Source of the DNA: Trissonchulus latispiculum
Lineage: Eukaryota; Nematoda; Enoplea; Enoplida; Ironidae
DNA length: 64,000 bases
Assembly: GCA_030248195.1 (NCBI GenBank)
Contig: JASAND010021268.1
Location: 1 to 64,000, forward strand
Direction: 5' to 3'
Part shown: one piece after another, positions 2,586 through 61,200 of the stretch
Layout: every line of letters starts with the position of its first letter
Position numbering within the stretch: the stretch's first letter is position 1
Notes under the pieces: generated by a model
The model's input: only the letters and a program-made list of their open reading frames with translations
Databases searched by the model: none
Told to the model about the DNA's origin: nothing
Program-made: the position numbers and the translations under genes

Positions 2586-3490
2586 TGTCTACAACAGCAA
2601 ATGTCAACTTTTTGATTGGAAATTGCGTGAGTTATTCCATTTTTCCGATTTTCAAAATCCTTTGATGTTTGCCGGTTTTTCGACTTTGACTGGCTACTAC
2701 TCGTGACTCGCTCAGTGAAAAAATTTTTCGATTAGATTTTCAGGACCGCCTAGGCGTCAGCTATGATCTGATCCATGTGGTATTTCAAAATTTGAAAGTC
2801 GATTTTTTCTAAAAATACAACTTTTGACCCAAATTTTCGGCATATCGATTCCAGCAAAAGTGACAAGTAAAGTTCAATCTGATATGAATCTAACAATATA
2901 AACTTATCGCGGCTACGACAAATATTGCGCCAGCAATGAATTTTTAAACAATTTCCCTTATTTCAGCTGGTTTCTGGTAGTTGACACTGGCTCAGGAAAT
3001 CAAGGCGGCAACATCAAAGGCAGCCACAAACCAGCTGAAATAAGGGAAATTGTTTAAAAATTCATTGCTGGCGCAACATAAGTCGTAGCCGCGAAAACGT
3101 TATATCTTTGGATTCATCTCAGATTGAACTTTATGATTATGCTATTTTAACTCACTTTTGCTAGAATCGCTATGCCAAAATTTTGGGTCAAAAAGTGGTA
3201 TTTTTCGGAAAACTCGACTTTCAAATTTTGAAATACCAGATATCTCAGTTCAAAGCTTGGCGGTCCTGAAAATCTACTCGAAAAAGTTTTCCACTGATCG
3301 AGCCACGAGTAGTATACGTATATAAAGTATACTTGCCCAGTCTATATTTGCCCAGTCAAAGTCGGAAAAGCGGCAAAGATCAAAGGACTCTTAAAATCGG
3401 AAAATGTAATACTCACACGTAGTAGTAGTAGTACGTAGTAGTACTAACGTAATTTGCAACCAAGAAAGTTGAAATTTGCTGTGTACGACT
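2586..3490. repeat. Large imperfect palindrome (about 400-bp arms)
   Basis: The left arm (about 2586-2985) and right arm (about 3025-3490) are inverted copies separated by about 40 bp. The central part of the arms, around AATTTCCCTTATTTCAGCTG and its complement, is almost perfect. Outer parts are diverged, and the right arm has gained a short CGTAGTAGTAGTAG expansion near 3418-3445. No reading frame spans it. It has the form of a foldback element or of two head-to-head copies of one repeat. Confidence 0.8.
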
Positions 3491-9109: not shown

Positions 9110-9400
9110 TTAGACCTTAGTGACCCCGCAAATTGGTACCCAGTCGAAATGGGGTAAGCTCACTCGCAGTAAGCTTGTATATTAAAGCTCGAAAGCACAA
9201 GCTGCACGTACGCGAGTTTTGTGACTGTTTCAAGCTTTAGAAGCATAGCGGTCCAATTTCCTTGATGCACTAAGATCCAATTTGCGGGAAGTGGGCCGTT
9301 AGCATGCAGAGGATGTACCACGCTTACATTGCATAAAGAATATGACGGTTGCCAGACCATCATGCTTTGTGTATTCTTAGTTACTTTTGGTTAAAGTAAT
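9110..9400. repeat. Diverged foldback-family fragment
   Basis: CGCAAATTGGTACCCAGTCG followed by GGTAAGCTCACTCG and AAAGCTCGAAAGCACAAGC matches, in order, the reverse complement of the core of the foldback at 25833-26176. No clean termini are visible, so this is probably an old, truncated copy. Confidence 0.5.
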
Positions 9401-9741: not shown

Positions 9742-12493
9742 CTATTGCTGTGACCGTTTCGTCTGACGAGTGTTTGCGCTCTGATGCGTCGAATAAACGC
9801 CGACCTGGTTGATCGGTTTCCCGCAGCACCGGCGAAGCACCATTCCCAATGTCTTTCTAAAGTTTTCATTGTCCAGATAGTATACGAAAAAGTTCCAGGT
9901 GCTGTTAGCGTGGGCGGCAAAAGCTCCAAATAGATAAACTGGAATGGGAATGCGTTCATCCACACCCCAAAGAAAAAGGAATGCGGCGGGGAGCCAGGAG
10001 ATTATGTAAAACACAAAAATTTTAAAGGACGTTTTCAACAGCTTAATCTCGACCAGAATCTGCTTGTCGCGACTCAGCGTGGTCCCAGGCTGACCCCGAC
10101 CGATGGCGACGGCGCTCGTGGCCCCCGCAATCAACTTCTTGGCTTGACTGCTCTTTCGAAGGGTGAAGTAAATGCGCACGTAGAATGCAAATGTGATACC
10201 AATGGCCACAAAGAGACAGAGTCCGTAGAATATGCTGTAGGATTGCACTTCCATGTCAAGGGTGCACAATCGGAACCCTCGACTGTATCGCGGCCGCCCC
10301 CAACCGACGTGGTTCGGCAGATGCATCAGCAGACACAGACACCACAGACAGAGAATAGACAGGGCAATAAACACAGGTTTGAACAAACGCAGGTACACCG
10401 GGTATCGGCAAATATAGAAGTACCTGAAAATAGGAAAACATCCATTAAGAATTAAGATTACTTGGTAGCAATTCAAAACGTGGTTCTGGTTTGCTGATGC
10501 CTCCAACCAAAACTCACACATGTGTAATACGACAATACTTTTGCAGTCACCATTCGAAATCTGAAATAGACATCCTTATGCGGCAAGACACGTGAGTCCA
10601 GTTATCCAATCAAAGTATAATGATTTAGTCAGTCAGTCTTGTTTGCGTTTTTTTCGACATACATTCCAGAAGAAATCCGTGCTAGCCAAAAAATGCCAAT
10701 GCCAAAAAATTATATATATATCCATTTCTATACTCAAGAACTCTCAGGTAGTCGTGGCTAAGTTGTTCATAACTCGAATTCCCACGGCAATATTATTAAT
10801 TGAAAAGAAGTACGGCCACATCTCCTCTGAACAAGGAAAGTAGTAAAGGAAGTGGCTGCCTTGTACCTGCTGGCAGCGATGCAACAGATGCTGTACATGG
10901 AGGCCAGACAGCCGGGCGCGCAGACGCTCGCGAGTAACGTGCACAGCCTCACGTGATCTTCGAAGTACTCTCTTCCCATCAACGCACCTGAAATCAGAAA
11001 TCTGAAATCATATATCAGAAGATATTCTTAAACATAGAAGAATTAGGTACTCTTGCTGTTATTCTGTACACAGAGGACTTAACTTTCCAGTCTCTTCTTA
11101 TACTCATTTCGGCGCTTCTCAACCTTGTGTAATCTTGTGTAAAGGTGTGGGTGTATCCTATGCCATCATATAGACATGGTGAGGGAATAGCTGACCTGCG
11201 ATGCTGGAGGGCATGACGACTCCGTTGACGAGGAGATCCGCCAAGGCGAGGTTCACCACGTACACGTTCCTGGAGACCCGGTTCGCCTGGATCATCGTCA
11301 GAGACAGCACCGTCTGAAACACAACAGTCCTACACTACACACCTTCTCCTTTATGTGGTCATAGGGACTAATCAGACTCCAAAATGGCTTCACTTCTAGT
11401 GATCTGACTAATTCGCTACACTGAGCTGGTGAGTGCACATGATTTACTGAGGTCCGTCACTTTTTAGATATTTTAGAAGTTCCGGAATACAGAATAAACT
11501 TAAGCACAATTTGTACTTCTTCATTAGTTTATGCTGAAGCCATTTAGGTGGTGGCTGATGGTATCGAGATTCTGTTTACAGAGAGACTTCTGCACCCCAA
11601 TAACCACGAAAGCTTAATTGGAGGTTAGAAGCTTTTCTTGGGTCTTGGTGAAGACTAGTTCTAAACTACACGAGCCTTCACGCGCCCCCCACGGATTCAT
11701 GTAAAATCCCTGTACTTTTGTGTCGGCCAGGGCAAGACTCTGAAAAGGTTGCGCATGGGCTGATTAATTCGGGACAGTTCCTGTATAGATTTAAACACGC
11801 AAATTATCAATGGCCCTATTTCTTTAAAGATTAAACGCATTAGATTAAAATTACTCCGTATTAAAGAAATAGCACTTCGGATTAAACGGATTAAAATTTA
11901 ATCCAGCGAGTTAAACGAGTTAAACGGATTAAATTTAATCCTATTTCTTTAATACACCTAGGATTAAAATCTTAATCTAATCCTGTTTCTTTATTCACAC
12001 TTCGGATTAAAAACTCAACGAGTTAATTTTAATCCGACCTGCTTAATCGCTGTTTCTTTAAAGATTAATATCAATCCATTTAATCATCCGCATGCATTTT
12101 CAACTAACTTTTAATCATCGTGCAGCTACGCGGATTAAACGGATTAAAAGTTGGTGGATTAAAATTTTTAATCGCTGTTTCTTTAATGGCGGATTAAATG
12201 GATTCAAATAAACTAGTTTAATCCGCGGATTAAAAATGGTCGGATTAAACGAGTTTATTTTAATCCGTTTAATCCGTTTAATCCTGCATTAAAGAAATAG
12301 AAATTAAAATTTTAATCCGGCTGATTTTTAATCCATTTAATCCGACCATTTTAATCTTTAAAGAAATAGGCCCAACGAAACAGGATAAACAAGCGAATGC
12401 ACTCACTAGGATATTCCCACATATTCCAGTAACGGACGCAAGTCCTAGTGCAATGGAGTACACAATGGCATAGCCTCCGTAGTCCACATCCAT
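9742..12493 (-). CDS. Class A GPCR, melatonin-receptor/moody-like, 4 exons
   Basis: Seven-helix plasma-membrane receptor coupling an unknown ligand to G proteins. Exons on the minus strand are 12493-12407, 11313-11196, 10987-10867 and 10423-9742. All introns are GT-AG with consistent phases, giving 335 residues. Helix 1 ends in GNILTVLSL, helix 2 has NLALADLL, and helix 3 starts at a cysteine (VRLC) and ends SRY in place of DRY. The second extracellular loop has the partner cysteine (FRLCTLD), helix 6 has SWLP, and helix 7 reads NSTWNFFVYYLDN instead of NPxxY. The RYFYICRY stretch after helix 3 recalls melatonin receptors (NRYCYICH), which also lack DRY. Only about 8 residues precede helix 1, so an upstream exon may be missing; the frame stays open 5' of this ATG beside a possible acceptor. 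Receptor fold is sure; subfamily is an inference. Confidence 0.85.
11812..12373. mobile_element. MITE in GPCR intron 1
   Basis: Ends are inverted copies: GGCCCTATTTCTTTAAAG at the left and CTTTAAAGAAATAGGCCC at the right. The body is an array of GGATTAAA, ACGGATTAAA and TTTAATCCG words in both orientations. There is no open frame. It lies wholly inside the 1093-bp first intron of the receptor gene, so it is spliced out. Target duplication is unclear (AAT against AAC), leaving the superfamily open. Confidence 0.75.
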
Positions 12494-13253: not shown

Positions 13254-13649
13254 CGAGAGTACATAATAATAAGAGTATGACAAGAGCATCACACTCTATG
13301 CAGTGAAAGCCAAAACTATGCTATGCGCGCTATCGGCTGACCCCCTCTCACACCGCCCCTAGGGTACATAGTCCAGAACGGGGTCGCTCACTCGCTTACC
13401 ATGTTTTCTACGTACAAGTGATAAACAGACACGCTTAAACCCCCTCCCCAAATTAGGCCCCTGTTAATTTCAGCATGTAATTATGCAAAGCAGTGAGCGA
13501 CCCCCGTTTGGACCACGTTCCCATATAGGGGCGGTGTGAGACGGGGTCAATTTGTGGGAGGGGGGTCAGCTGATAGCGCGCATAGCATAGTAGTACCACA
13601 ACTGCATAGAGAGTGACGCTTGTCATACTCTTATCATTATGTACTCTCG
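13254..13649. repeat. Foldback element, CGAGAGTACATAAT ends
   Basis: Left end CGAGAGTACATAATAATAAG and right end (reverse) CGAGAGTACATAATGATAAG. The arms continue through ACTATGCTATGCGCGCTATC, a CTCACACCGCCCCTA block and GGTCGCTCACTCG-type motifs. The spacer in the middle is about 100 bp. It belongs to the same family as 25833-26176. A further lone end (TTATTATGTACTCTTGG) is at about 13765. Confidence 0.75.
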
Positions 13650-13799: not shown

Positions 13800-16250
13800 G
13801 GGTGTCTTCTCAGACTTGAGTTGTTTGCCCGGCTACTGTAGAGCCTATCCGGCCAGCCAGCGGGCCGGCCCGGTCAGAAACAGCCGGCCGTCCGTCTGGA
13901 TCAAACCAATCCGTGATACATGTTATCTGTTATACAGAAACAAGAGTAACGTATCATTTAGTGCGATAACTTTTGCAAAATGCACCAAAAACAGGACAAA
14001 ACTGGTACCGGCTGGTCGAGTCACAACGACACTACTTCAGGCGTGGAAGAAAACGTGGTGTTCTGAGACCCTGGAAACATCCACGCAGTTGAAACAGAGG
14101 CGGTTTAACTCACCACGGAGGTCGCAGGGAGAGGAATCGTTGAAGTACTTTGAGTTGAGCACACATCTCCAAAATTAAGAATCTTGTTTCAAATTATTAG
14201 CCTTGGTTCTGCTAGCCGAGAAACCTTTCAGAGATGTTGGAGCCTTCCCGGATTTCTACTATGTAGCAAGCGGAATTATGAGATAGGCAATGGTTGTGGC
14301 ATGAAGCCCATGAAACCTTGTAAATAATTTACTTGAAACGTAGCAACATTGCGTGACAATATGAACTGACATTTGATGAAGGCTGGCTAATCAGAGCAAG
14401 GTTAATCTCTCTCTCAACACTCAATCCAATATCCAATAGACGCCAAACAATCCCTGTTCTGGAAAATTACAGCATAGTTTATTATCCCAATTATCACCTG
14501 GGAAATTGCCAGTTTGCTGGATTAAAATCCAACGAAACAGCGCTGAACGGATCCTGGCCAACGCCGGGGTAATTGGAGTGAGGTGGAGGGAAGGAACCCG
14601 AATCTGAATTGGATAACCCAGCCCCCCCCCCCCGGTTGAACCGGTCTCAAATTCCTCGCTCCTTCCAAATAAAAACAATCTACCTGCAGCACCTAACTTC
14701 TCTTGCTAATTAAGTTCACATGGAAAAGAAAGGGAAAATTAGTTGCAACAGTATGAAAACGTTAGTATTATAATTATCATAAAACACAAATACCATAAGC
14801 TGGATAATAGGTTGCCAACAGTCCACATGATGACAGTACTCGAATAATAATAAGAAGAGTAGGCAAACTGCCAGGTTAATCTTTTTTGTTATTGTGTAAT
14901 TGTGCCCCGGGCGGAATATACGAATTTTTCTCTCATTCTCACCGCAGGAATGGGAAAACTGCAGAAAGGTAATTAGGTTAACTGGGACGGATTTCTGTAA
15001 AATGATTGGTTGTGGGGACTCCTCCCGTTCCAACCGAGAATCGCCTTTCCCGGCCCTCGCCGACCTCTCACTCGAGTCGACCCGTAGCGAGACTCCGTTC
15101 TCTTGCACAGTTTATCCTGGCGATTTCTGAAAGGGACTCGCTCACGATGGACTACATTATTCAAAGTACAGACACAAGTGCTACTTATGCTAAAAGTACT
15201 AACTTCCTCCACGTCCAAATTGCCGAAGTTATATTTCTATCTCAGGGGGTCCATAATTTAGAGTTGCGATTGCAAGGAACGGTTACAAATTGTATATTGG
15301 GGATTGTGTCTCCTTTCTACAGTTTCCCTTCAAAGCAAACAGGTTGCGTTAGTGGTTCTTGGGTGATTTACATGCGTTCACACCTTTTGGAAGAGTTCTA
15401 TCAGAGCGTCAGTGATTGCAAAATTTTAGTAAAATAGAAACTTTTTTGGGCTTCAGTGAGCTAGATAATAATGCATGAACCTGAATGTGCACTTGAACAA
15501 AGACATGTGTGCTGTTCAGGGAGTGAGCGCATTCAAACATGATCCGAATTTTCTGGGCGAGAAGGCGACTAAAGACTCGTTAGTGGGGAGAGAACAGACG
15601 AAACTGGATATCAGAAGCATTAACGTTCATCACACGTCTATCAACAGTGCACACATAGTAAACAAATTTGTCCATTCCACTATTTCTGGGATGCTGTGAA
15701 GGATAAAAGGAGTATGTGTGTGAGCTCATGAAATAGTGTATATAAATTTTGTAAGTTCTCAGCCAAAGCACTGCTCTATCACTCCTGTGGGCATGCGGTT
15801 TAGATGAAGGCTGCCCCTCAGTCCAGTCTTGATTGCACACTGAAACTCCACAAACGGTGTCAATACGAACTGATAAGTGCCAACTCAACTGAAACATAGA
15901 AAACTAATTTCTACGACGAAAAGAAAGCTTAATCAAATTCCTGTACAATAAGCTTTTAAATTCGAACACTATACCTAATCAAATTTAAAATAGATTAACT
16001 TGTAGGCACATTAGCCCGTCAACCCAAGGCATGTGTCTCTTCTTTCGGAAAATTGCTGAAACACTGATCAGTCCACATATCAGGGTTCGTTAGTTTATTG
16101 GCCTCGTAAGGGATACTAGCCTGAGAACGCCCATAGGAATAATGGTGGGCGAAACGTCCCGACCCAAACTTTGACAGCTCCCGTGACAATGGACCAATCA
16201 GAGACAATGTGAGACATGCGACAGACACATGACTGATGCACTGTACCACA
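13800..16250. other. Gene-free stretch, nothing recognised
   Basis: Several short open frames exist but none shows a domain, signal peptide or repeat match. A C run lies at about 14620-14632. Confidence 0.4.
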
Positions 16251-16257
16251 TCGGTTC

Positions 16258-16432
16258 TGTTAAATATCAGCAACCCAGAAAGGTTGAAATCAGCGTAATA
16301 ATCTACTCTCAACGACCGGGGATGTGGCGCAGTGGTAGAGCGTTCTACTTCTTAAACCAAAGCTCGGCGGTTCGATTCCCGCCCTGGACACTTTTCTTCA
16401 CATCTATCAGATCCTGATTTCAACCCTTCACA
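16258..16432 (+). repeat. TRIM left (5') LTR
   Basis: Begins TGTTAAATATCAGCAACCC and ends AACCCTTCACA. It contains the tRNA-like unit at 16314-16390. About 97% identical to the right LTR, consistent with a fairly recent insertion. Confidence 0.9.
16314..16390 (+). ncRNA. tRNA-Ala-like Pol III unit in the left LTR
   Basis: The 5' half from 16318 (GGGGATGTGGCGCAGTGG, then TAGAGCG) reads like the 5' half of a eukaryotic tRNA-Ala. A box TGGCGCAGTGG is at 16325-16335 and a perfect B box GGTTCGATTCC at 16369-16379. A T4 Pol III terminator follows at 16392-16395. The D stem (GCGC/GCGT) and a T stem (GGCGG/CCGCC with an 8-base loop) can form, but the anticodon stem pairs poorly. It is therefore probably a transcribed tRNA-derived RNA rather than a working tRNA. 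Position 2 of the possible acceptor is mutated relative to the right copy. Confidence 0.7.
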
Positions 16433-16752
16433 TTTGGCGACCGTACCGTGTCCTTACCGCTCTGAGGAGATGAAGTCGTTTGTGATGCCTGGGAATGGTG
16501 GAATTGCAGGTCCTTGAGATAATTGGTTTGGTATATGGTGGTCCTCGTGGTGCTAAGGGTTAATATGATGGTTATTGGTTCTTGTGTGATTTGATAAGGC
16601 TCCCGGCTTTGAAGAAGAAAGAAGTAAAATATGGCCTCGGGATAGGAGGCAGCCGGGGAGCCGCCCTTAGACCACACTGGTGCTTTGATTTGAGGACCCG
16701 ACCTGCAATTCCTGGAAATTCGAGGCCGAATTTCAAATTAGTAAGGGGAGTA
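16433..16752 (+). other. TRIM internal region with PBS and PPT
   Basis: It starts TTTGGCGACCG, in which TGGCGACCG is a typical Ty3/gypsy-type primer binding site matching a tRNA 3' end. It ends GTAAGGGGAGTA, a polypurine tract for plus-strand priming. There is no Gag or Pol sequence in between. Confidence 0.85.
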
Positions 16753-16927
16753 TGTTAAATATCAGCAACCCAGAAAGGTTGAAATCAGCGTAATAATCTA
16801 CTCTCAACGTCCGGGGATGTGGCGCAGTGGTAGAGCGTTCTACTTCTTAAACCAAAGCTCGGCGGTTCGATTCCCGCCCTGGACACTTTTCTTCACAGCT
16901 TTCAGGTCCTGATTTCAACCTTTCACA
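16753..16927 (+). repeat. TRIM right (3') LTR
   Basis: Begins TGTTAAATATCAGCAACCC and ends CAACCTTTCACA, followed by the duplicated target GTTC. It contains the second tRNA-like unit. Confidence 0.9.
16809..16885 (+). ncRNA. tRNA-Ala-like Pol III unit in the right LTR
   Basis: Same sequence as the left unit apart from one base. Here GTCCGGG at the start and CCTGGAC at the end can form a seven-base acceptor-like stem with one G-T pair, followed by A. A box, B box and T4 terminator (16887-16890) are all intact. Conservation of this block between the two LTRs follows from reverse transcription and does not by itself prove function. Confidence 0.7.
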
Positions 16928-16929
16928 GT

Positions 16930-18387
16930 TCATGATATCGATTGATGGCCCTGCGAGCACTCGCGCAGGATGCGAAGGAAAGGAACCCTTGTTGCCTTCT
17001 CAGCCGCTTACAAGACGAATTCGGAATACAAAGGAGTATATGTGTGATTCGTGAAAATGCGAAAGACTAATTCCCAACTAGTTGTAGCAGGTTATTAGTT
17101 ACCTCAGTGAACATTAAAATAATGGCCTGAAATTAAGATGCGGAATCAAGGTGCCGATTATGTCTAGGATATGCCTACGCTGATTGGATGCATGAGTCTT
17201 CCATCAAACTAATTAATCATTAGTAAGGATTGTTCCGACCAATCCCTTAATAAACTGATCTTCATACAAACTAGACTCTTGCAAGGACTCAAAATTAACA
17301 TTTACTGTCTTGCTGCCCGGAATCCCAATCCCTGGAGCAAATTTAAGTGAAATAAGACTTACTCAAAGTAATTAGTGTGCTCTAATTTGCGCAGGCGGAT
17401 TTTATTTCCGTTACAGGAGAATACAATCCCGGTTTATTGCCTGCAGCTGTTTTGAGTGCATTTCCCATCTGTAGCTCGTCGGAGTTTCTGCATCGGAATT
17501 AGCTGGTGGCTGTCCTCTCCGAACGGGTGAGGGCGAATTTCGACAAACATCCCCGCCAAGTCAGGTTGCGTCTCCAACACCAACAGGAACCACTTAAGGT
17601 GCTAGTTTCCTTTCGGGTATTTTCACTCTCACGGTTTCAATCTTTTACGAAACAAGCCAAATCTGCGAATAACTCGTTTTCTTAATCTTTAACAATCTCG
17701 GGCCAGTCCCGTATTTTATGTAAAAAAGATAAGAAAAGATTTGGTGCAGATAACAAAGATTTGGTGGCTTCTTATGCTGTCAGCAGGCACTAGGGACACC
17801 GTATCGATTTTATTACACGAGCTTCCTGTAGAAACCTGTAGTTTTGTTCGACTTTTTTGACAATCCTAAATCAGATACCAAACTTGTGTAGTTTTTACAC
17901 CTGTTATTTCAGAAAAGGGGCAGGTGCGGGGGGCGGCCGCTCCCAAAATATTTTCGGCAGGGACCAAAAAAATTCACCCGCTTGAAATGCTTTTTTTAAA
18001 GAAAGCAAGCAAATTTGAAAAAATTCAGAAATTTCAGTCTTAAAAACTTATGGTCACTGTCGCATTTATATACTCAGTTTGCGTTGTCAGCGTGTCGAGT
18101 ACTTCCCTGTAGAATAAACATCTGAACCATTGAAAACTACAGGTTTCCTTTGTATTGAATACTGGTCAAACTTGTAATCCATTCTACCAAAGAAGATCCG
18201 GTAAAACTACCAACGATGTCCTGTAGAAATTACAAGACTTGACCTGTATTTTCTACAAATGCTTTTGTATTTATCATCTACAAAAGTGATTCTTGTAGTT
18301 TCTACTGGAACATTTCTAACTGTGAAATGAGCATTTTGCTTTTACAATGATTGAGCTACATTTGTAACGGTTATGTCAGTATATATA
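16930..18387. other. Gene-free stretch with a TTAA-type repeat end
   Basis: At about 17593, TTAAGGTGCTAGTTTC followed by TTTTCACTCTCACGG resembles the left end of the TTAA element at 33489. No matching right end was found. Nothing else recognised. Confidence 0.4.
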
Positions 18388-24206: not shown

Positions 24207-27200
24207 CTAGATTCGCTTCCAGAGCCACTGAGAAAGAAGTGGGGCACTCTGTTCCGCCCATTCGTACTCGGCTCTCACCTCTCTGATGAGGGAGTGGAGG
24301 GCCTTCGGAAAGAGGCCCATCAGGCGGTCCGTCTCCAGAGAAGTGCCCACCATCGTCCGAATCTTCTGTTTGAAGTAGTAGGTGTCCATCGTGAGGAAGT
24401 AGTCCTCCGCCTTGAGATGGCCTCCTCGCTCCAGTCGCTCCAGGAGGAGTCGGAATTTGAGCGGCTGCGGCTCCAGAGAGAACGGGTTCTCCAGATGGTC
24501 CATCCGGAGGGGACTCAGGGAGGAGTGGTCCAGAAGACCCTCCAGGAGATCCGGGTCAGTGGAACAGAGCAGCTGCTGATAGCCCAGATGGAGGAACGTC
24601 GGCGTCGTGAAGTCTCCCTTCAGAATGGACTTGGCCAACTCCAGGTCTGGTGGATGGAGATTGTGATGAATCCGGTGACAGAGATAGTACTGCCAACAGG
24701 AGTTCTCCAGAGACCCGATCAGAGTCATGCTCTGGAGAGGCCCGCCTCCCGCTGGGATCGCCGTCTCCGCTTGAGGACTCGTGGAGAAGGCGGACTGATT
24801 CAGGGCCCATCCCTGACAGGAGGACAGCTTTGTGACACAGAAAAGAAGACAGGCTGTGGAGACGTCTTCCCGGAAGAGCGTGGCCCGCTCCGAGTAGCCT
24901 CTCTCGGATCGGAGAAGGCGTTCCAGCTGGGCCAGGACGGGCCGGAAGTAGAGTTGGAGTGGAGTCAGCGCCACCGTACCGCGATACAGCTGGAAGATCT
25001 GTTTCGCGATCTGGGCGCCCACCCACCACGGCAAGGGATCCTCCTCCAGTCTGAGGTACTGGCACAGGTCCAGGAGCAATGTTATGTTGTTGTTGTACAG
25101 AAAGTAGTATTCACTATTGGAGAGGAGATGGGCCCGAGCTGTGGCGGACATTTCTCGGCGTCCATACTTGAGCTGATGAATGAGGGACTTCCAGTTGGGC
25201 AGATCGTAGTTGACTCGAAACGGGAAATCGCCACCACTGTTGAGGAGGTACCAGTCACTCTCTGATTCTGAACTGGCTAAACTAAAGACGTGTTGCTTTG
25301 ATTCCAGCCAGCGAATCTGGGCAGAGTCGTCCCTGTTGGCTTTGATGTTGCCGAATGTGAATGTCAGCGGAATCCTCCAGATCGGATTTTGAGCAGACTC
25401 GGACCGATTGCTCTTATCAGTGACTGAGAAAACTTCTGGTAGATAATGGTCGCTCTCTCCTCTGTTCTGCCAGACCGCCACCGAATGTTCTCCAACTATC
25501 CTTCTCACATGAACTTCTGGTAAACCAGGATTTCTAATCCATCCGTCCATTATCTAAACATTAAAATTCAGTTCTACACACTAGTCGTGATAGCAAGAGT
25601 TGTGGTGAAACCTATGATAATTATATTTTTCGAAAGTTAAAATTAATCTAAGGACAGTTTTTCTGATCCTTAACTTTGATGCTTATCTGATGTGTTTGTA
25701 ATGATTAGTTATGAGAAATGAAGATGCAGTTTAGTCGAGTTTCATGAGTTTGGAATTCAGAGATTTTCCGGGAATAAGATTGAGCTGATTCAAGTGACAT
25801 TCTTTATTGTGTGGTCCTCCCTTAGTTCGCCACAAGAGTACATAATATAAGAGTGTGCCACTAGGCACACTCTCTGTTATCAGAGCAAAAACTATGCTCT
25901 GCTCGCTAACGGCCCACACCCCCCCGCAAATAAGGCCCTTCACTTGAAAGAATTTTGTGCGCAATGCTTGTGTTCTAAAGCTCGAAGCAGGCACAAAATT
26001 CGCACACGCACTGCTTGTGTTATCGAGCTTAAGCACACAAACATAGACCGAGTGAGCGTACCCCCGTTTCGACTAGGTACTGATTTGCGGGGGGGGGGCG
26101 TTAGCGAGCAGAGCATAGTTTTTGCTCTGACAACATAGAGTGTGCCTAGTGGCACAATCTTATATTACGTACTCTTGGTGATAGTTAGTCTTTCCATAAA
26201 CTAAACACAATATAAATTCACTTTCACTCTAATGTTGTACCGCTTATGTGTTGGACAACAACACATTTAGTGAAAATGCAAACCAAGTCTTCTTATTTGC
26301 AACGAATCAGCAAACAGGAATCAGTCAAGTCACTAACCATGTCAGAGTTCAAAGCTTGGTTTTGGTCTGATCTGGTTTCGACTTTTTGGTTTCTTGACCT
26401 GATTTTTAATCGTAAAAGGTTTTAGATTTAACATTTGCTGAAATCAAAAATAATTTTTTGTGATTTAATTTCGAATTTTCAGCAAACTTTCCTTGGGTAG
26501 TACACTTAACAGTTTCCAAGAAAGAGTACATAATAATTGAGATTTCAACAAGCATCACACATTTAGTTATCATAGATTAGGGGCATGATCCGCTCCGCAC
26601 GAGCACTGAAACCCCGTATGTAGTGCGCTGCCTGAGTACATAGCAACTGAGTATCTACCCAGTACAAAATTGTGTATGCTTACTAGCTTGTACGCTTACG
26701 TGCTGAAGATCGAAATGTAAGGGAAGCAGGCATAGGAAAGATTGATACCTGCTTAGGGAGTTCAGCCGATGGCCCTGTGGTGTAGCGGTAGCATGTCTGT
26801 TTCCGGATCAGAAGGGCCGTGGTTCGATCCCCGGCTGGGCCAAATCTTTACTTTCAATGGTGAGTGAAAAGCTGAACCTCCCTCTTCCCTTCTCTCTTCT
26901 AGGTCCTGGTTTCATGGGTACGAGGGTGCCCGACGCCTCCCGTTCGGGCTTGTCCTCGGTTTCTTCTTAGTCCACCAGCCCTGGTAGAAGCGCTACATGC
27001 GCTACGCTACAGAAGCGCTATTCCCTTACAGAAATACCAAACTGCAGATAGAACCTTTGACGTTCAACATGCAAACATACACGCGAGTGAGCGTACACAA
27101 TTGTTTACTGGGCACTCAGTTGTCAGGAATTACCAGGTCAGAAGGGAGACGAGAGTTATCACGCACGCACTGATCATGTCCCCAGATCTAGTTAACCTTG

Positions 27201-37518: not shown

Positions 37519-38379
37519 TAGAGTTGTTCGGGGGCTGGACTTCGGGCCGGCCCCCGGGGGGCTGGCCCCGGGGGCCGGCCCCCAACCGGCCCAGCCCCCT
37601 TCTTAAAATTGGGGGCCAGCCCGTGGCCCAGCCCCCAATTTTGGGGGCTGGCCCCCACAACGGCCCCGGGGGCCGTCCGCAACGACGGCCCCCGGAACGG
37701 CCCCCGGCCCCCAAACGGTTCTAAGCTTGACATTTCTGCATAAACGATTTGCTATTTCCACCAGTACATATATATACCTGATGTGTCTGCACGCCTTCTT
37801 GCGCTTTACTCCAACGCATAACAACGATGTATACACAAAGTTTTCTCAATGTTTCTGCAACCTTTTTCTATATGCCGTAGACTACAGGGAAGTCTACAGC
37901 CTGCTAAGCTTGCTGTCGTGCCGTCGTCTCTAGCTGAGCTGAGTCGAGTAAAGGACAATCACATAGGAAACAAACATGGTTTAGTTGCGGAAGTTGCTTC
38001 GCCTTTGCCAACTGCAGGTTAACGACTTGGTTCAGTTTTGCGATCGCATTAAATTTTTGTTTAACCTGCTTGTAATGGCAAGCAAATTATCCGAGTTGCT
38101 TGCTTGTACTGCTTCATTTTTGTTAGTAATTAATTAGACGGTTTTCTTAGGATAGGAAATAAAAACAATGTCTGTAGTTGTACTTCCTTAGAAAGCACAC
38201 ATTCATTGAGCCGGGGGCCGACTGGGGGCCGTCCATCCGGACGGCCCCGGGGGCCGGGTGGGGGCCGGGCCCCCGGGGCTGGCCCCCAAAGTAGTGGCCC
38301 AGCCCCCGGCCCAGCCCCCAAAATTCGGGGGGCCGGGGTCCGGCCCAGCCCCCTTTTTAACGAATCGAGGACAACTCTA
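37519..38379. mobile_element. hAT-like element with very GC-rich arms
   Basis: Perfect 8-bp target duplication CATATAAG at 37511-37518 and 38380-38387. Inverted ends TAGAGTTGTTCG and (reverse) TAGAGTTGTCCTCG, then long arms built of GGGGGCTGG, GGGCCGGCC and GGCCCCCGG words. Ends starting TAGAG with an 8-bp duplication fit hAT. The arms are far more GC-rich than the surroundings. The central 480 bp is ordinary-composition DNA and includes a possible receptor fragment. Confidence 0.85.
37727..37933 (+). pseudogene. Possible GPCR helix-7 fragment inside the hAT-like element
   Basis: The plus-strand frame contains FCNLFLYAVDYREVYSLL and ends in SCRRL and a stop. The spacing N-x-x-L-Y, acidic residue, R and then a cysteine resembles helix 7, helix 8 and the palmitoylation site of class A receptors. 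No other helix is present. If real, it is a captured terminal exon; it may also be chance. Confidence 0.25.
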
Positions 38380-46461: not shown

Positions 46462-46584
46462 TGATGAGAGCGCGGCAACTTCTATCTGACTTAACTATAT
46501 TCCATACATATACATAAAGTAACTATAGGATTGAATCACATTTTTAAAACTAATTTCTTGGTATTCTTAGCATAGTTCACATCA
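46462..46584 (-). repeat. 3' LTR of the Ty3/gypsy element
   Basis: TG...CA bounded, 123 bp, about 98% identical to the 5' LTR. Confidence 0.9.
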
Positions 46585-46613
46585 TCTTCCTCTTCCCAAA
46601 TGGTTTTGTGGAG

Positions 46614-49600
46614 CTAGCGATTGGCTTGGCGTCGTTTTAGCAGTGCTTCGTATTCCATTGGGAGCAAAGGATTTCTTGGCTGTCTCTGTCTTAAGGGATA
46701 TCTTCTTTCTTGTGGTTGGATAGGTTCTGGCTGCGGTGCTTGTTCATGCTGACCAGGACCCTGATCAGCGGCAGGAAGAACATCTGGCATTTCGTCAAAG
46801 TTCCAAGCTCCGTCAGTCTGGGAGGCACCCCCGGTATTCCCGGCAGAACGGATTTGGTCGCAATGCCGAATGAAATTGCGGCCCCGTACCCGAACCTCGT
46901 ACATTAACCGACCTTTCTTTCTCACCACCTCACCCAACAGCCAGGATCCCTCTTTGCTTGATTTGGTCCAGACGCGTTGCCCAACTCGAAATCGTCTTTT
47001 TGGGTCCGCTGAACCAACTTCAAGTTCTTCTTTCTTGGTAAATGCCAAGCGAAGTCGAGTCTTGATTTCTCGACCAAGCAGGAGCTTGCTGGGGGTTTGT
47101 CCTGTTACGGTATGTGGAGTTGACCGATACGACAACAAAAACTGTTGAAGTTTCAAGGATGCAGAGCTCTGTTTCTTTAGGTGTGTCTTTAAGATCCTAA
47201 CAAATGATTCGGCTTCTCCGTTGGAACTTGGATGATATGGAGCCGTGGTAATGTGTCGAATCCCATTGTCTGCACAAAATGCTTTAAAGGCATGCCCAAC
47301 AAATGATGGGCCATTGTCGCTGACTATTGTGGTTGGCAACCCGAAACGAGAAAATACGCTTCTCAGAGCGGTTACCGTTACCTCCGCCGTTGACGAGTTG
47401 AGTGGAATTACCTCGGGCCATTTCGAGAATGCGTCTACCAAGATAAGGTACATCTTGCCGTCCACTGGACCTGCATAGTCTACATGTACCCTATCCCAAG
47501 GCGTAGCGGGTTTAGGCCAGGTCATTGTTTCGGAAGGCGGGAAACTTTGGCCTTTGGCACATTGACTGCATCCGGAAACTTTCTGTTCTATTTCCGAATT
47601 CATCGTGGGCCACCAGCAAAGCTGTCTAGCTAAGCTTTTAGTTTTGGCAATACCATGATGTCCGGCATGTAGTTCATTTAAAATGGTGGATTGGTACGTA
47701 ATCGGTACGATAATCCGATCTCTCCAGTATACGCATCCATTCTGGACGGAAATCTCTGATTTTCGCTGATGATATGGTCGGAAAGCGTCACCGTCTACCC
47801 TGAGTGGCCATCTTGTTTCCACATAGGACTTTATTTTCGACAGCACCGGATCTTCTAGGGAAGCCCTTTGTAGTTCGGCGAAAGAAACTTCCGTACCCTG
47901 GGCAACAAAACATATCTTTGTTATGTCTTTGGTTTCCAAACTTTCAGCTTCTTTCGTTGTAGCTACCGGAAGTCTTGATAAGCAATCTGCGTTCGCGTTG
48001 TTCGCAGAACTTTTGTACTCTATTGTGTAGTTGTATGCTGAAAGTAGAATTGCCCATCTTTGCAGTCGATTTGCAGCATATTGCGGTACTCCGGTTTGGG
48101 GAGCAAATATCTTCGTGAGCGGCTTGTGATCTGTATACAATGTGAATGATCTTCCGATGAGGTATCTGTAGAACTTTTTGAAGCCGAAGATTATGGCCAA
48201 GGCCTCCTTTTCTATTTGGGAGTACTTCCTTTCTGCATCAGACAAGGTTTTAGAAGCCGCGGATACTATCTTCTCTCCATCTTTAGTGCGATGTGAAAGA
48301 ATGGCTCCTACGCCCAGATCAGATGCGTCACAAGCCAATACCAAAGGCAATTTAGGGTCGTAGTGAGCTAAGACTTTGGTTGACGACAGACTACTTTTTA
48401 GGTCTTGGAAAGCTTGGCTGTGCTTCTGATCCCACTTCCACTGAACTCCTTTCTTTAGCAAATCTGTTAGTATAGCTGTAGTGGAAGATAGATTTGGTAT
48501 GAACTTCGCGTAGTAGTTTATCATCCCCAAAAAGCTTTTGAGTTGTGACGAGTTTTGTGGCTCGGGCAGATTTAGGATAGCCTTCACTTTGTGTTCAATT
48601 GGAGTGATGCCTTGCCCACTAAGGTTCAGCCCAAGATAAGGTATAGTTGGTTTCAGAAATTCGCACTTAGGCAGGCCTAAGCGAACTCCATGTTGTCTCA
48701 GGCGTCGAAACACTTGCTCCAAGTTTTTCAGATGATCCTGAGTCGTGGCACCCGTTATGACAATGTCGTCGAGAAACCAAGCAACACCCGGCAATCCAGT
48801 GAGCATTCGGTCCATCTGCTTCTGAAAAATGGCAGGGGCGCTGGAAACACCAAATGGCAATCGGCGGAATCTGAAAAGTCCAAGGTGGGTGTTGATGACG
48901 CAGAGTTGTTGACTTTCTACGTCCAATTCATACTGATTATATGCCCTTGACATGTCCAACTTTGAAAATTTGGTGCCTTTATCCAGTTTCATCACCAATT
49001 CTTCTCTTGTTGGTAGAGGATATTGATCCACAGCAAGGAATGGATTGATGGTGACTTTGAAGTCGGCACACACCCGTACCGAGCCATCTGGCTTTAAAAT
49101 TGGAACGATGGGAGCAGCCCAATCACTTGTATCAATTGGTTCCAAAATTCCATCGTTGATATCTCTTTGAATCGACTTTTTGACGCCATCTTCTAAAGCA
49201 TACGGAATTGGCCTTGGTCGGAAGAACTTTGGAGTTGCGCCCTCTTTCAGGGTAATGTGTGCTTTCGCATTGTCGAATTTTCCCAAATCTGGTTTGAATA
49301 AATCTTTATATTCATCCAGCAAATCATTCAATCTTGAGGCTTCTTGAGCTTCATTCTGTAGTTGAGATACTGACACTTTTTGCTTCAGACTTCCCCAATC
49401 CAACTGGATTCGATTTAACCAATCCCGACCAAAAAGAGGCGGTCCAGGTGATTTAGCCACCACTATCGGCAATTTAGGATAGAACTGATCCTGATAGAGG
49501 ACGTCGACTGTCGTTTCACCCAGAACAGGGATTTTGGATCCATCATATCCTTTAAGTTGAATCTGTGTCTTTGTTAGCTGCAGGTCATGAAATTTTTCTT

Positions 49601-50558
49601 CCCACACTTTGTTAGGAATGATCGTGATTCCTGCTCCAGTGTCCAGCTCCATAGACAGTGGCCGACCCTCCAGATTTAGGTTAACTGTTAGTGGTGCACT
49701 ACAGGTAACTGTATGCACATAATAGATTGGCGGATCTTCATCAAAGCTGTCTTCTTTAGGGTGACTTTCTGCCTGTTCATTTACAAAATGAGCGGTACCA
49801 ACCTTTTTGTGACCTTTCGGTTTTCTACAGGCTGCATTGATGTGTCCTTTAATGCCACAATTATGGCACGTTGCATTTTTGAAGTAACAGTCCTTGCTGT
49901 CATGGTTGTTTTTGCCGCATCGTGTGCAGATTTGAGTAGACTTGGTAGGTTTCGGAAATTTCGGGGGTCGCTTTGTATCTTTGTAGTGACCTGATGTGAC
50001 CTTGTTTACTTGTGACGTTGATTCACTTCCTTGTGACTTTTGTAGTAGTTTAGCATTACTGGCTGCCATTTCCATACTTTGTGCTAGTTCAAAGGCTCTG
50101 TTGAGGCATATATCCCTTTCACCCAGCAACTTGCGCTGAATACCGTCGTTGTTTAAGCCACAGATAAACCTGTCTCGTAGGGTTTCGTCAAGATCGTTGA
50201 ACTCGCAGTAAAGGGCCAATTTGCGCAGTTGGGCTAGGAATTGGCTAATGGATTCGCCACTTTGTTGTCGTCGATTGTGAAACTTGAATCTTTCAGCAAT
50301 CTTCAGTGGACGTGGCTCAAAGTGTTGACGAAGGGTTTCCTTTAATTGATCCAAAGGTAAGTCACCAGGATTGGCTGGGGCTACCAAGGATTTCAACAGT
50401 GAAAAAGTACTTGAGCCTATGGTGCTTAGAAACACCGCCCGTTTCCGAACATCTTCTTGGATATTGTTCGCTATAAGGAACTGATCCAATCTTTCCATAT
50501 ATGTGGTCCAGTTCTCTTCTGTACTGTCAAATGAATTTAGTTGGCCAATCATAGCCAT
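46614..50558 (-). CDS. gag-pol: Ty3/gypsy Gag-Pol polyprotein
   Basis: One uninterrupted frame for the structural and enzymatic proteins of the element. It is about 1314 residues from the ATG at 50558, which has a good context (CTGCCATGGCT). The frame itself stays open without ATG into the 5' LTR. A Gag domain is followed by two CCHC knuckles (CTRCGKNNHDSKDC and CHNCGIKGHINAAC, about residues 208-245), then an aspartic protease (ELDTGAG, about 305). Reverse transcriptase has FLDD instead of YxDD (about 595), and RNase H follows (ACDASDLGVG, about 740). Integrase has an HHCC zinc domain (about 965) and DDE residues in VDYAGP, SDNGPSF and NGEAESF (about 1025-1115). The tail is rich in P, Q and R. 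No stop or frameshift, so the copy could be active. Confidence 0.95.
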   Translation of the reverse strand: MAMIGQLNSFDSTEENWTTYMERLDQFLIANNIQEDVRKRAVFLSTIGSSTFSLLKSLVAPANPGDLPLDQLKETLRQHFEPRPLKIAERFKFHNRRQQSGESISQFLAQLRKLALYCEFNDLDETLRDRFICGLNNDGIQRKLLGERDICLNRAFELAQSMEMAASNAKLLQKSQGSESTSQVNKVTSGHYKDTKRPPKFPKPTKSTQICTRCGKNNHDSKDCYFKNATCHNCGIKGHINAACRKPKGHKKVGTAHFVNEQAESHPKEDSFDEDPPIYYVHTVTCSAPLTVNLNLEGRPLSMELDTGAGITIIPNKVWEEKFHDLQLTKTQIQLKGYDGSKIPVLGETTVDVLYQDQFYPKLPIVVAKSPGPPLFGRDWLNRIQLDWGSLKQKVSVSQLQNEAQEASRLNDLLDEYKDLFKPDLGKFDNAKAHITLKEGATPKFFRPRPIPYALEDGVKKSIQRDINDGILEPIDTSDWAAPIVPILKPDGSVRVCADFKVTINPFLAVDQYPLPTREELVMKLDKGTKFSKLDMSRAYNQYELDVESQQLCVINTHLGLFRFRRLPFGVSSAPAIFQKQMDRMLTGLPGVAWFLDDIVITGATTQDHLKNLEQVFRRLRQHGVRLGLPKCEFLKPTIPYLGLNLSGQGITPIEHKVKAILNLPEPQNSSQLKSFLGMINYYAKFIPNLSSTTAILTDLLKKGVQWKWDQKHSQAFQDLKSSLSSTKVLAHYDPKLPLVLACDASDLGVGAILSHRTKDGEKIVSAASKTLSDAERKYSQIEKEALAIIFGFKKFYRYLIGRSFTLYTDHKPLTKIFAPQTGVPQYAANRLQRWAILLSAYNYTIEYKSSANNANADCLSRLPVATTKEAESLETKDITKICFVAQGTEVSFAELQRASLEDPVLSKIKSYVETRWPLRVDGDAFRPYHQRKSEISVQNGCVYWRDRIIVPITYQSTILNELHAGHHGIAKTKSLARQLCWWPTMNSEIEQKVSGCSQCAKGQSFPPSETMTWPKPATPWDRVHVDYAGPVDGKMYLILVDAFSKWPEVIPLNSSTAEVTVTALRSVFSRFGLPTTIVSDNGPSFVGHAFKAFCADNGIRHITTAPYHPSSNGEAESFVRILKTHLKKQSSASLKLQQFLLSYRSTPHTVTGQTPSKLLLGREIKTRLRLAFTKKEELEVGSADPKRRFRVGQRVWTKSSKEGSWLLGEVVRKKGRLMYEVRVRGRNFIRHCDQIRSAGNTGGASQTDGAWNFDEMPDVLPAADQGPGQHEQAPQPEPIQPQERRYPLRQRQPRNPLLPMEYEALLKRRQANR

Positions 50559-50604
50559 GGCAGAAATTAGAGTCAAAGTACAGAACAGATTTCCAGTGCG
50601 CCAA

Positions 50605-50727
50605 TGATGAGAGCGCGGCAACTTCTATCTGACTTAACTATATTCCATACATATATATAAAGTAACTGTAGGATTGAATCACATTTTTAAAACTAATTTC
50701 TTGGTATTCTTAGCATAGTTCACATCA
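50605..50727 (-). repeat. 5' LTR of the Ty3/gypsy element
   Basis: TG...CA bounded, 123 bp. On the minus strand it contains TTTATATATATG, the likely TATA box. Confidence 0.9.
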
Positions 50728-50745
50728 TCCAAAAGCCACCATCAC

Positions 50746-58153: not shown

Positions 58154-58275
58154 TTACAACGTGACTACGGGTAGCTTTACCGGAGCATCAACAAACGGTT
58201 TCAGTCTGTTGATATTAACAACGACTGGGTCGCTCAGCCCGTTGGTTCTAGCTATGCGATAATTCGCTAAATAAA
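58154..58275 (-). pseudogene. Shifted-frame end of the pol gene
   Basis: In the frame next to the main pol frame the minus strand reads NYRIARTNGLSDPVV, then NINRLKPF, up to a TAA at 58154. This is the usual C-terminal pattern of Ty3/gypsy integrase (the LKPF block). The main frame instead ends early at 58248 after an AT-rich stretch (58256-58288). An insertion or sequencing indel in that stretch therefore appears to have cut off the last about 35 residues. Confidence 0.65.
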
Positions 58276-61200
58276 TATAAATATCGATAAATCTTGTCCA
58301 AGATCCGGTACGGTCCTTCATACTTAGGCCGTAACTTCTTACTCAAGCCCGCCGGTACATTCTTTTGCTCTATATTAAGCATAACCAGGGTACCTGGTTT
58401 GTACTCGACCGGTGTAGCCTTGGTGTCATACCGTTCCTTGTTAACCAGAGCTGATTCCTGTAAAGCTTCGTGGGCAATCCGCCAAGCTTCGTTAAGCCGA
58501 GCCAGCAACTGGCTTCTTGCATCGCTGTAATTTTGTGTGGTACCTTCTTCACCAGGAAGCTGGAAGAAGTTGTCTAACGGATACCGGTAGTCCCTACCAG
58601 TCATCAAGAAATAGGGCGTTTCCTTTGTAGCACTATGAATTGTCGCTCTATAAATAGATAGGCCCCATGGCAGGTAGTCGTCCCAATCGGACTGGAAGCA
58701 ATTCACATATTGAGCTACTAGGCTTCGAAGCGTACGATTAAAGCGTTCCACTACGCCGTTCGTTTGCGGGTGATATGCAGTAGTTCGGAGTCGCTCTGAA
58801 CCACTCGCGTCCACCAACGCCTTCATGAAAACGGACATAAAGTTAGGACCTTGATCTGTTAATACTCGCGCGGGGACACCCCACCGAGCTACGAAGCCAT
58901 TAAAGTACCAGTATGCCGTGGTCTCAGCTCTCTCATTAGGCATAGCGAACGCCTCCGCGTAACGCGTGAGGTAGTCGACTATGCACAGAACGCAGGTATT
59001 GCCTCGATTTGTCTCCTTCTGCGTGAAATGCATTACGTCCATAGCGACCACGTCCAATGGCTGCCGTACCACTACCGTATTTTGCATGGTAGCTTGATGC
59101 CGACGAGGGCCTTGACTAAACTTGGCGCAAGATTTGCAGTTGGCAATATAATCCTCGAGGTCTTGTGACATACGTGGCCACCAGTACTTGGTTTCTAAAC
59201 TGGCCATGGCATTCTGTTGGGCCCGGTGCCCCCCTGTCGTGAAATCAGAATGCACTTCCTTCAGCAAATTTTCTCGTTGGACTTTCGGAACAACTACCGT
59301 AGGAAAGGGTAACCCTCTCCGTTCTGCGTGCTTATTCAAGTGCCAACGATAGAGCACCCCATCACGTATGAAAAAGGTAGAACGCAACTTTCTAACCTCT
59401 TGAGCCTCCTGGCGGTTAGCCGGTAACCGCTTTTGCTCGAGAAAGTCTAACAAAATCGCAAATTCCTCTTCGTCTCGAAGTTCGCGTTTCCAGGTAAGCA
59501 GGGTCGGTGGAGCCGGGAGGGCCGCCGTCAAAGCGTACACCTCTGGAGGGTACATGACTGCTGTAGCCTCCTGTTCACTGTCCTCGGGTTCGTCGATTGG
59601 GTCCAGTCTGGATAGACAATCTGGTCCAGCGTTCTCTTTGCCTGGGCGGTATTCCACGACAAAGTCGAATTCAAGCATACGTGTAGCAAACCTGGCCAGT
59701 TTGCCTTGTCCCAAGGCTTTAATATTATTCAGTAAGTCCCTTACTGCTTGATGGTCGGTGCGCAGGACAAACTGCTTAACGGACAAGTAATGCCGAAATT
59801 TCTGACATCCCCATAGGGCAGCGAAGGCTTCCATTTCAGTTGCAGAATAGCCCTTCTCGCCTTGGGTTAAGGTTCGACTCGCATACGCGACCGGCCGCTC
59901 GCGTAACACTCGCGGCCCGTTTGGCTTGTCCAAGCTCCGAGGCACCGAGAACTGTTGCTCTAAGATAGCTCCGAAACCCCGCTTACTAGCATCAGTCGAG
60001 ACGTAGAAGGTTTTGTCAAAATCAGGAAAAGCGAGGACTGGCGCTTGCGTCAAATGCCGTTTGAGTGCCTCAAAGGCTTGTTGGCAGGCGTCGGACCACA
60101 CAAAGGGTACCCCTTTTTTCAACAGGTCCGTCAGTGGCGCTGCGACTTTGGCGTAATTCGACACGAACCGCCTATAGTAGCCACACATCCCCAGAAAAGA
60201 CCGAATGCCTTTGACGTCTTTAGGTGGGCTAAGCTGGGACACTGCCCTCACCTTGTCTGGGTCAACGCTGATGCCATGACGGCCCACGTAATGGCCCAGA
60301 AAAGGCACCGCTTCCCGTGCAAAGCAACACTTCTTAAGCTTGATACGCAGCCCATTCTCTCGTAAACGCGTCAGGGTCGACCTGAGCATTGTCAAATGTG
60401 ATTCCTGATCCGTAGATGGAATCAGATCGTCATCTATATACACTGGTAAGTCTGTCAAGACTTTTTCCATTAGCCGTTGAAACGTTGCGGGTGCGTTGCA
60501 TAACCCGAACGGCATGACATTCATATGAAAAAGACCCATGTGTGACACAAAGGCTGTCTTTTCACGATGTTCTGGGTAGACCTCGACTTGCCAGTACCCT
60601 GCCGCTAGATCAATAGTTGAGAATATGACGGCACCCTGGAGTTGATCCAGGATCTCGTCAATCTTGGGTAAAGGGTAACTATCCTTTTTCGTAATTTTAT
60701 TCAATCGTCGGTAATCAATGACTAGACGCGTAGTACCGTCCTTTTTGCCGACCAGAATACAGGGTGAGGACCAGGGACTGGTAGAGGGTGAACAGACCCC
60801 TTCGTCTAGCATTGCACGGATATGCTTTTCAATCTCGGCTTTGTCCTTGGGATTATACCTGTAAGATCGTCCTTTCACAGGACCCTCTTTGCCTGTGTCG
60901 ATGACATGCTGGTCGACTTTGGTCCGGCCCGGGTTACCCGGTCGGGCGACCACGTCATAGAATTCGACCAGTATATCCCGCAACTTCGCTTTGCCTTCCT
61001 CGTCTAGGATCATAGAGTCGAAGTCGACGTTCTCGTCGACAAATTGCTGACGTTCTTCCAATGAGGGCATGGGCTGCGAAGTCATTTCGTCAGCCGAGTA
61101 GTGTAGGTCATTAAAAGCCTGCAAGCCTTTATCCGTCAATGCCGGTGGCTCTTCATAGCCCCATGTCTGGTCATCCTGGGCTACGCACACAGTAGGGTCA

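Follow-up and report, generated by a model that had tools for sequence, protein, structure and literature searches.

The closest described relatives of the element reported here are the Helenus TRIMs (TRIMp3), which were described by Kojima in 2024 from fungi, animals and one plant (PMC10886601). According to the main text of that paper, animal Helenus/TRIMp3 elements are moved by a Gypsy-type autonomous element, and their use of Pol III is called unvalidated by its author (PMC10886601). Among the papers found under the names Helenus or TRIMp3, a 2026 meeting report cites the 2024 paper, and the others are unrelated.

The window analyzed here, 64,000 nucleotides of contig JASAND010021268.1 from the nematode Trissonchulus latispiculum, contains at 16258-16927 a 670-bp LTR element in which two 175-bp TG...CA repeats flank a 320-bp non-coding interior. 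This element is very probably one older copy of a large, recently active family of Helenus-type TRIMs (TRIMp3), for which we propose a Pol III-based mechanism. The Helenus-type kind has been known since 2024; new here are integrated tRNA-Arg copies, conserved arms within the LTRs and the placement of a T4 run. The features of the element, and of a Ty3/gypsy-like element elsewhere in the window, are as follows.

16254-16257, no strand: left TSD, GTTC (from the sequence)
16258-16432, plus strand: 5' LTR, 175 bp, TGTTAAAT...TTCACA (from LTR alignment and family copies)
16278-16293, plus strand: U3 arm (LTR 21-36) of a 16-nt inverted repeat, 5' LTR copy
16314-16391, plus strand: tRNA-like region of the 5' LTR, predicted start of R
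16325-16335, plus strand: A box TGGCGCAGTGG, 5' LTR
16369-16379, plus strand: B box GGTTCGATTCC, 5' LTR
16392-16395, plus strand: T4, predicted Pol III terminator, 5' LTR
16414-16429, plus strand: U5 arm (LTR 157-172), 15/16 complementary to the U3 arm at 16773-16788 in the predicted RNA
16433-16752, plus strand: interior, 320 bp, non-coding, without a T4 run
16435-16444, plus strand: PBS TGGCGACCGT, 10 nt complementary to the tRNA-Arg(UCG)-CCA 3' end
16500-16512, plus strand: left arm of a 13-bp inverted repeat in the interior
16700-16712, plus strand: right arm of the same 13-bp inverted repeat
16743-16752, plus strand: PPT AAGGGGAGTA (GGGGAGTA ends 59 of 63 family interiors)
16753-16927, plus strand: 3' LTR, 175 bp
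16773-16788, plus strand: U3 arm, 3' LTR copy, pairing with 16414-16429 in the predicted RNA
16820-16830, plus strand: A box, 3' LTR
16864-16874, plus strand: B box, 3' LTR
16887-16890, plus strand: T4, predicted end of the genomic RNA
16928-16931, no strand: right TSD, GTTC
46462-50729, minus strand: Ty3/gypsy-like element with a 1335-aa reading frame, 125-bp LTR-like repeats (98.4%) and PBS TGGCGCACTGG

Re-measurement at 16258-16927 recovered every structural part named in the preliminary description: the 175-bp TG...CA repeats, the PBS, the PPT, the GTTC duplication, the boxes and the T4 run. The two LTRs differ by 5 mismatches (97.1% identity), and each carries the A box at LTR position 68, the B box at 112 and T4 at 135. 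The only two occurrences of this A box/B box/T4 pattern in the window are those in the LTRs of the element, compared to 0.003 per dinucleotide shuffle (300 shuffles). The PBS TGGCGACCG begins two bases into the interior, which terminates in the PPT. The GTTC duplication lies outside the LTR pair and flanks neither single 175-bp unit; a 4-mer match at the same spacing is found at 326 of 63000 window positions. The longest stop-free stretch in the element is 105 codons. The interior folds better than shuffled sequence, with a stronger difference on the minus strand (z -5.2) than on the plus strand (z -2.1), and folding as good as this was found in 10 of 107 other 320-nt windows.

We then turned to the assembly (733.8 Mb, 21,732 contigs). 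The LTR query gave 1965 first-look candidates, the best 40 of which were scored and yielded 41 matches at 97-100%, and the interior query gave 745, of which again the best 40 were scored. The resulting 76 loci held 83 chains, deduplicated to 59 distinct ones, and these copies, drawn from the best-scoring matches, are biased to young copies and to the subfamily of the window element. Among the distinct chains, 32 are simple LTR-interior-LTR copies, 6 are LTR-interior-LTR-interior-LTR arrays and 2 are solo LTRs, counts that leave out chains touching a locus end (2 of 59); the remaining chains are truncated, longer arrays or cut by the locus end. A perfect 4-bp TSD flanks 25 of the 32 simple copies, all 6 arrays at their outer ends and both solo LTRs; the 7 simple copies without an exact 4-bp TSD include 2 that match at 3 of 4 bases. 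The further full copies, solo LTRs and 4-bp duplications that the preliminary description had proposed to look for are thus present in the genome. Identical LTRs in 13 of the 32 simple copies indicate that the family was recently active, and the five differences between its LTRs make the window copy older than these. The PBS TTTGGCGACCG is present in 61 of 63 family interiors. A pattern search found the exact family patterns absent from viral, prokaryote and plasmid collections; a loose B-box/T4/PBS pattern matched 51 viral and 20 prokaryote contigs, which are presumably chance or bacterial tRNA matches and were left out of the analysis.

A second LTR subfamily was searched with its own query (L086:1021-1194), and the best 40 of 2078 candidates yielded 41 matches at 95-100%, including 6 full copies, of which 4 have TSDs and 4 have identical LTRs. 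Four simple full copies (L129, L131, L116, L138) combine matching TSDs with an LTR pair drawn from different subfamilies. Within each of the 6 arrays the two interiors differ (84-99.7% identity) between matching outer TSDs, and some arrays have outer LTRs of one class and inner LTRs of another (L126, L086, and L147 at a locus edge). In total 12 of the 59 chains were flagged as mixed in LTR class, 4 of which, by reading, differ by one class-motif base only. Recombination of cDNA into resident copies is known for yeast Ty1, and arrays with differing interiors or LTR classes would fit the same process here.

Each LTR had been described as holding a complete, tRNA-Ala-like gene with a perfect B box. 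ARAGORN detected no tRNA in 60 distinct LTRs, in 12 LTRs of the second subfamily or in the window element, the Rfam tRNA model misses the tRNA-like part, and no Rfam family matches 16200-17000 at E<=1. Of the cloverleaf arms, the D arm is preserved, full closure of the T arm requires a loop of 8 nt, and by inspection the anticodon stem is lost. LTRs of the second subfamily carry ...GTTCTCGACTGCAGATCCAAAG... or ...GACTACAGATC...; aligned to tRNA structure, the first of these would read GCA (Cys), as would the anticodon loop GACTGCAGATC of this subfamily. When the window copy was compared to six animal tRNAs, Arg-TCT scored 75 and Ala and Lys 66. The tRNA-like part is degenerate, and its sequence looks like a promoter and not a working tRNA, much as Kojima depicts Helenus (PMC10886601). 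A functional tRNA is rejected, as neither program recognized a cloverleaf, and a "complete" gene is not supported; nor is an Ala origin, given the Cys reading of the other subfamily and the higher Arg-TCT score. A box, B box and T4 do stand in each LTR as described, but the B-box letters called perfect are private to the window copy, occurring exactly in only 2 of 96 LTRs, most of the others having GGTTCGATCCC.

T4 runs are confined almost entirely to the predicted Pol III terminator. Of 81 distinct LTRs, 80 have exactly one run, which begins at LTR 127-142, and all 60 distinct interiors lack one, even though 18 of them contain A4; one of six second-subfamily interiors has a T4 run (L150), and all of these counts come from copies sharing descent. 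For the window interior alone, the absence of T4 has P 0.06-0.07 in dinucleotide shuffles and 0.13-0.20 in single-base shuffles, and T4 is also absent from 11 of 120 windows of similar T content. A mutation-event count gave 4 apparent T4-creating changes, which we dropped, finding no T4 run in any context inspected. Since Pol III starting from a promoter in the 5' LTR would meet this terminator ahead of the PBS and stop there, a full-length RNA needs read-through. Terminators of four Ts are leaky, and the data fit a single weak Pol III terminator per LTR.

Two further stretches of the LTR, at positions 21-36 and 157-172, can form 16 base pairs with each other (15 with the left LTR of the window element). 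In an R-U5...U3-R transcript these arms would not form one hairpin but would link the PBS-side U5 with the PPT-side U3, and in the predicted RNA they pair with probability 0.94-0.998 over 12 pairs. Across 81 distinct LTRs arm pairing is kept in 1283 of 1296 cells, the two arms have the lowest and the fifth-lowest variability among 160 LTR 16-mers, and 11 of 12 second-subfamily LTRs retain 16/16 complementarity. This conservation suggests that the arms might cyclize the RNA, a hypothesis at this stage because arms that hardly vary offer no compensatory change to prove pairing.

To identify the primer, the genome was searched with a pattern for tRNA 3' ends fitting the PBS, which gave 27 matches compared to 4 for a backward control. 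The 25 matches that were fetched and classified comprise 8 tRNA-Arg genes without CCA, 14 partial copies with CCA and 3 partial copies without CCA. One gene (L155) was called Arg TCG by ARAGORN, and the other seven were assigned by whole-tRNA alignment at 96-100%. The window PBS matches tRNA-Arg(UCG) over 10 nt, or 11 nt with the L155 variant. At three family loci (L160, L161, L167), a tRNA copy with CCA begins exactly at the PBS, two bases past the family's LTR end, and comprises 39 nt of tRNA-Arg(UCG), running to tRNA nt 38. L160 (C9206:4100-5500, reverse strand 559-874) consists of LTR, PBS, tRNA and then an inverted truncated LTR, with an LTR terminus at both ends and the TSD ATAC/ATAC. 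In L161/L180 a partial LTR leads into the tRNA copy and then another LTR; at L167/L181, which is flanked by TATA and TTTA, interior sequence starting at position 197 comes after the tRNA copy, and then an LTR. Other CCA-bearing partial copies of tRNA-Arg were seen at L154, L156, L162, L163, L166, L169, L170, L172, L173, L174 and L178, and several of them have a common LTR-like terminus (..CCGGTAGTTAACA, ..GGGGATTGACA or variants of these) ahead of TTTGGCGACCG.

In terms of sequence, tRNA-Arg(UCG) joined to the PBS in these copies names the primer. In our reading, the three LTR-PBS-tRNA copies derive from plus-strand strong-stop DNA whose synthesis ran on into the primer tRNA before an erroneous template switch. 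The last copied tRNA nucleotide in the 14 CCA copies is 38 in 7, 37 in 2 and another position (27 to 46) in 5, one copy (L170) being cut by the contig end, which suggests either that base 37 blocks extension or that a 3' tRNA half serves as the primer. A candidate for such a block is m1G37. At the level of titles and abstract openings we found no description of integrated primer-tRNA copies; a 1994 title in the reference list of PMC5371799 states that the primer tRNA sequence is not inherited in Ty1.

Other explanations can be set against this evidence. That tRNA 3' fragments were inserted by a LINE or by repair, with no relation to priming, would agree with the CCA pieces that adjoin other sequence (for example L162, L172 and L178) and with L164/L182, where LTR position 168 runs straight into a tRNA piece and both PBS and CCA are missing. 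We think this very unlikely, given the precise start of the copy at the PBS in L160, L161 and L167 and, in L160, the 4-bp TSD and the LTR terminus at each end. The same three loci, where copied primer tRNA continues the PBS, also bear on the possibility, raised in the preliminary description itself, that two tRNA-derived SINEs lie in tandem. Two direct copies of the tRNA-like unit, each with both boxes and a T4, are indeed present, yet no duplication flanks each unit, and the LTR-interior-LTR structure recurs in the 32 simple copies, of which 25 are bounded by 4-bp TSDs. We regard tandem SINEs as refuted, with practically no chance left to them, and the element as a TRIM, as first described.

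The TRIM could still be transcribed by Pol II and its tRNA-like part be a passenger, left by a SINE or tRNA insertion into an ancestral LTR. Consistent with this, the A-box stretch (LTR 66-79, variability 0.049) is kept no better than the LTR mean of 0.041, and the A-box pattern is found in 72 of 81 distinct LTRs. However, the B box is found in 77 and a T4 in range after it in 79 of these LTRs, variability falls to 0.022 at the B box and 0.019 at T4 but rises to 0.082 between the boxes and 0.118 at LTR 37-56, and a motif scan of the element found no AATAAA, ATTAAA or TATAAA, so that Pol II transcription with a passenger tRNA-like part appears unlikely. It is quite possible, by comparison, that the arms serve DNA or protein recognition, through binding of integrase, TFIIIC or a transcription factor, and not RNA cyclization; their sequence is conserved, and compensatory changes are almost absent. 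Two separate binding sites, on the other hand, need no complementarity of such length, and the U5:U3 complementarity score was reached by 0 of 2000 shuffles.

Returning to a Helenus-type TRIM transcribed by Pol III, transcription would start near LTR position 57, driven by the A and B boxes of the 5' LTR, and would mostly stop at the weak T4 of the same LTR to give an RNA of ~80 nt. Occasional read-through to the T4 of the 3' LTR would produce a genomic RNA of ~577 nt, whose R region would be the tRNA-like part itself. Pairing of the U5 and U3 arms over 16 nt would join both R copies for minus-strand transfer, and Gag, RT and integrase would be supplied by an autonomous host LTR element sharing the primer. 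Several observations weigh against this model: the simple copies that lack an exact TSD, the A-box variability slightly above the LTR mean, the T4 run in the L150 interior, the clearer folding of the interior on the minus strand, and the CCA copies that end elsewhere than at tRNA nt 37-38. Taking everything together, we tentatively offer a joint account, possible though somewhat doubtful as a whole, in which the tRNA-like part is promoter and R behind a leaky T4, pairing of the arms circularizes the Pol III RNA for strand transfer, and the helper RT copies tRNA-Arg(UCG) past nt 58 to nt 38, where a modified base 37 or the end of a 3' half stops it. Failed transfers of this long plus-strand strong-stop DNA would then give tRNA-bearing, even inverted, molecules that are still integrated.

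Neither of the two LTR elements considered could be identified as the autonomous partner, which would combine PBS TGGCGACCGTG with an RT. The Ty3/gypsy element of the window at 46462-50729 was rejected in this role, its PBS TGGCGCACTGG differing from that of the TRIM. A second LTR family with the same PBS and two-base spacing gave 124 exact junction matches in the genome compared to 0 for the control, and one copy has, by eye, an 18-nt match to tRNA-Arg. Its junctions lie ~5.4 kb apart in L183 (C12419) and 1.5 kb apart, in tandem, in L184 (C11679). Eight reading pieces of one copy (L183) contained no Pfam domain at E<=0.1.

The window holds several other features. A second Ty3/gypsy-like reading frame of 1890 aa, named by eye, lies on the minus strand at 58248-63920, near the window end, and an M1 aminopeptidase gene has a tRNA-Arg(CCG) gene between its exons, at 26770-26843 and on the other strand. 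Of three protein searches, one gave only remote matches of about 30% identity in very different organisms, one gave none, and one gave three, to an unnamed protein, a mermithid nematode and a tardigrade. Imperfect palindromes at 2627-3416, 12131-12344, 13254-13649 and 25833-26177 are 68-76% identical to their own reverse complements and are possibly fold-back elements; the last has sequence in common with 9124-9314 and 13256-13406. A GC-rich tandem array of GGGCCGGCCCC-like units spans 37544-37692, within which a tRNA-Leu called by ARAGORN was unconfirmed by Rfam and is probably false.

These results show, from genome data, a large young animal LTR family with a tRNA-type promoter, in which the primer tRNA can be named directly from its integrated copies and the reach of reverse transcription into it can be read off. 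With a single conserved terminator and U5/U3 arms, the question of how a Pol III transcript can serve as an LTR-element genome becomes amenable to simple tests. In genome annotation, LTRs of this type can be mistaken for SINEs or tRNA pseudogenes.

Compared to known systems, the family resembles Helenus in being a TRIM with tRNA-derived A and B boxes in the LTR, a PBS and a PPT, in its 4-bp TSDs (as in animal Helenus), tandem arrays and solo LTRs, and in a tRNA mostly predicted to be non-working, and the window element falls within the Helenus range of 311-1263 bp (PMC10886601). It differs in that the available text on Helenus gives no conserved T4 terminator, U3/U5 arms or integrated primer-tRNA copies; the main text names a tRNA-Arg primer for Hymenoptera, not for vertebrates or bivalves (PMC10886601). 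The plant TRIM Cassandra likewise has a Pol III promoter and terminator within the LTR, with RNA that starts and ends in the small-RNA part, according to the available text of PMC10886601 and PMC7215508. The small RNA in Cassandra LTRs is 5S rRNA, whereas Rfam found no 5S rRNA match in the window element, whose sequence is tRNA-derived; with boxes in its LTRs, the element is an animal counterpart of Cassandra, as had been proposed. The nemertean Ajax is also an animal TRIMp3, differing by its 5S-derived promoter, 5-bp TSD and tRNA-Leu primer (PMC10886601). The biv-TRIMs of bivalves are animal TRIMs with terminal direct repeats and solo and tandem forms, but neither a clear PBS nor a tRNA promoter is reported in the available text (PMC6934838). 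In Ty3, as summarized in PMC5371799, a bipartite PBS with its 3' part in U3 joins the 5' and 3' UTRs, and the Ty5 primer is a tRNA cut in the anticodon loop. In the window family, by comparison, the 5'-3' contact would be direct U5:U3 pairing, and priming would proceed from the mature 3' CCA end.
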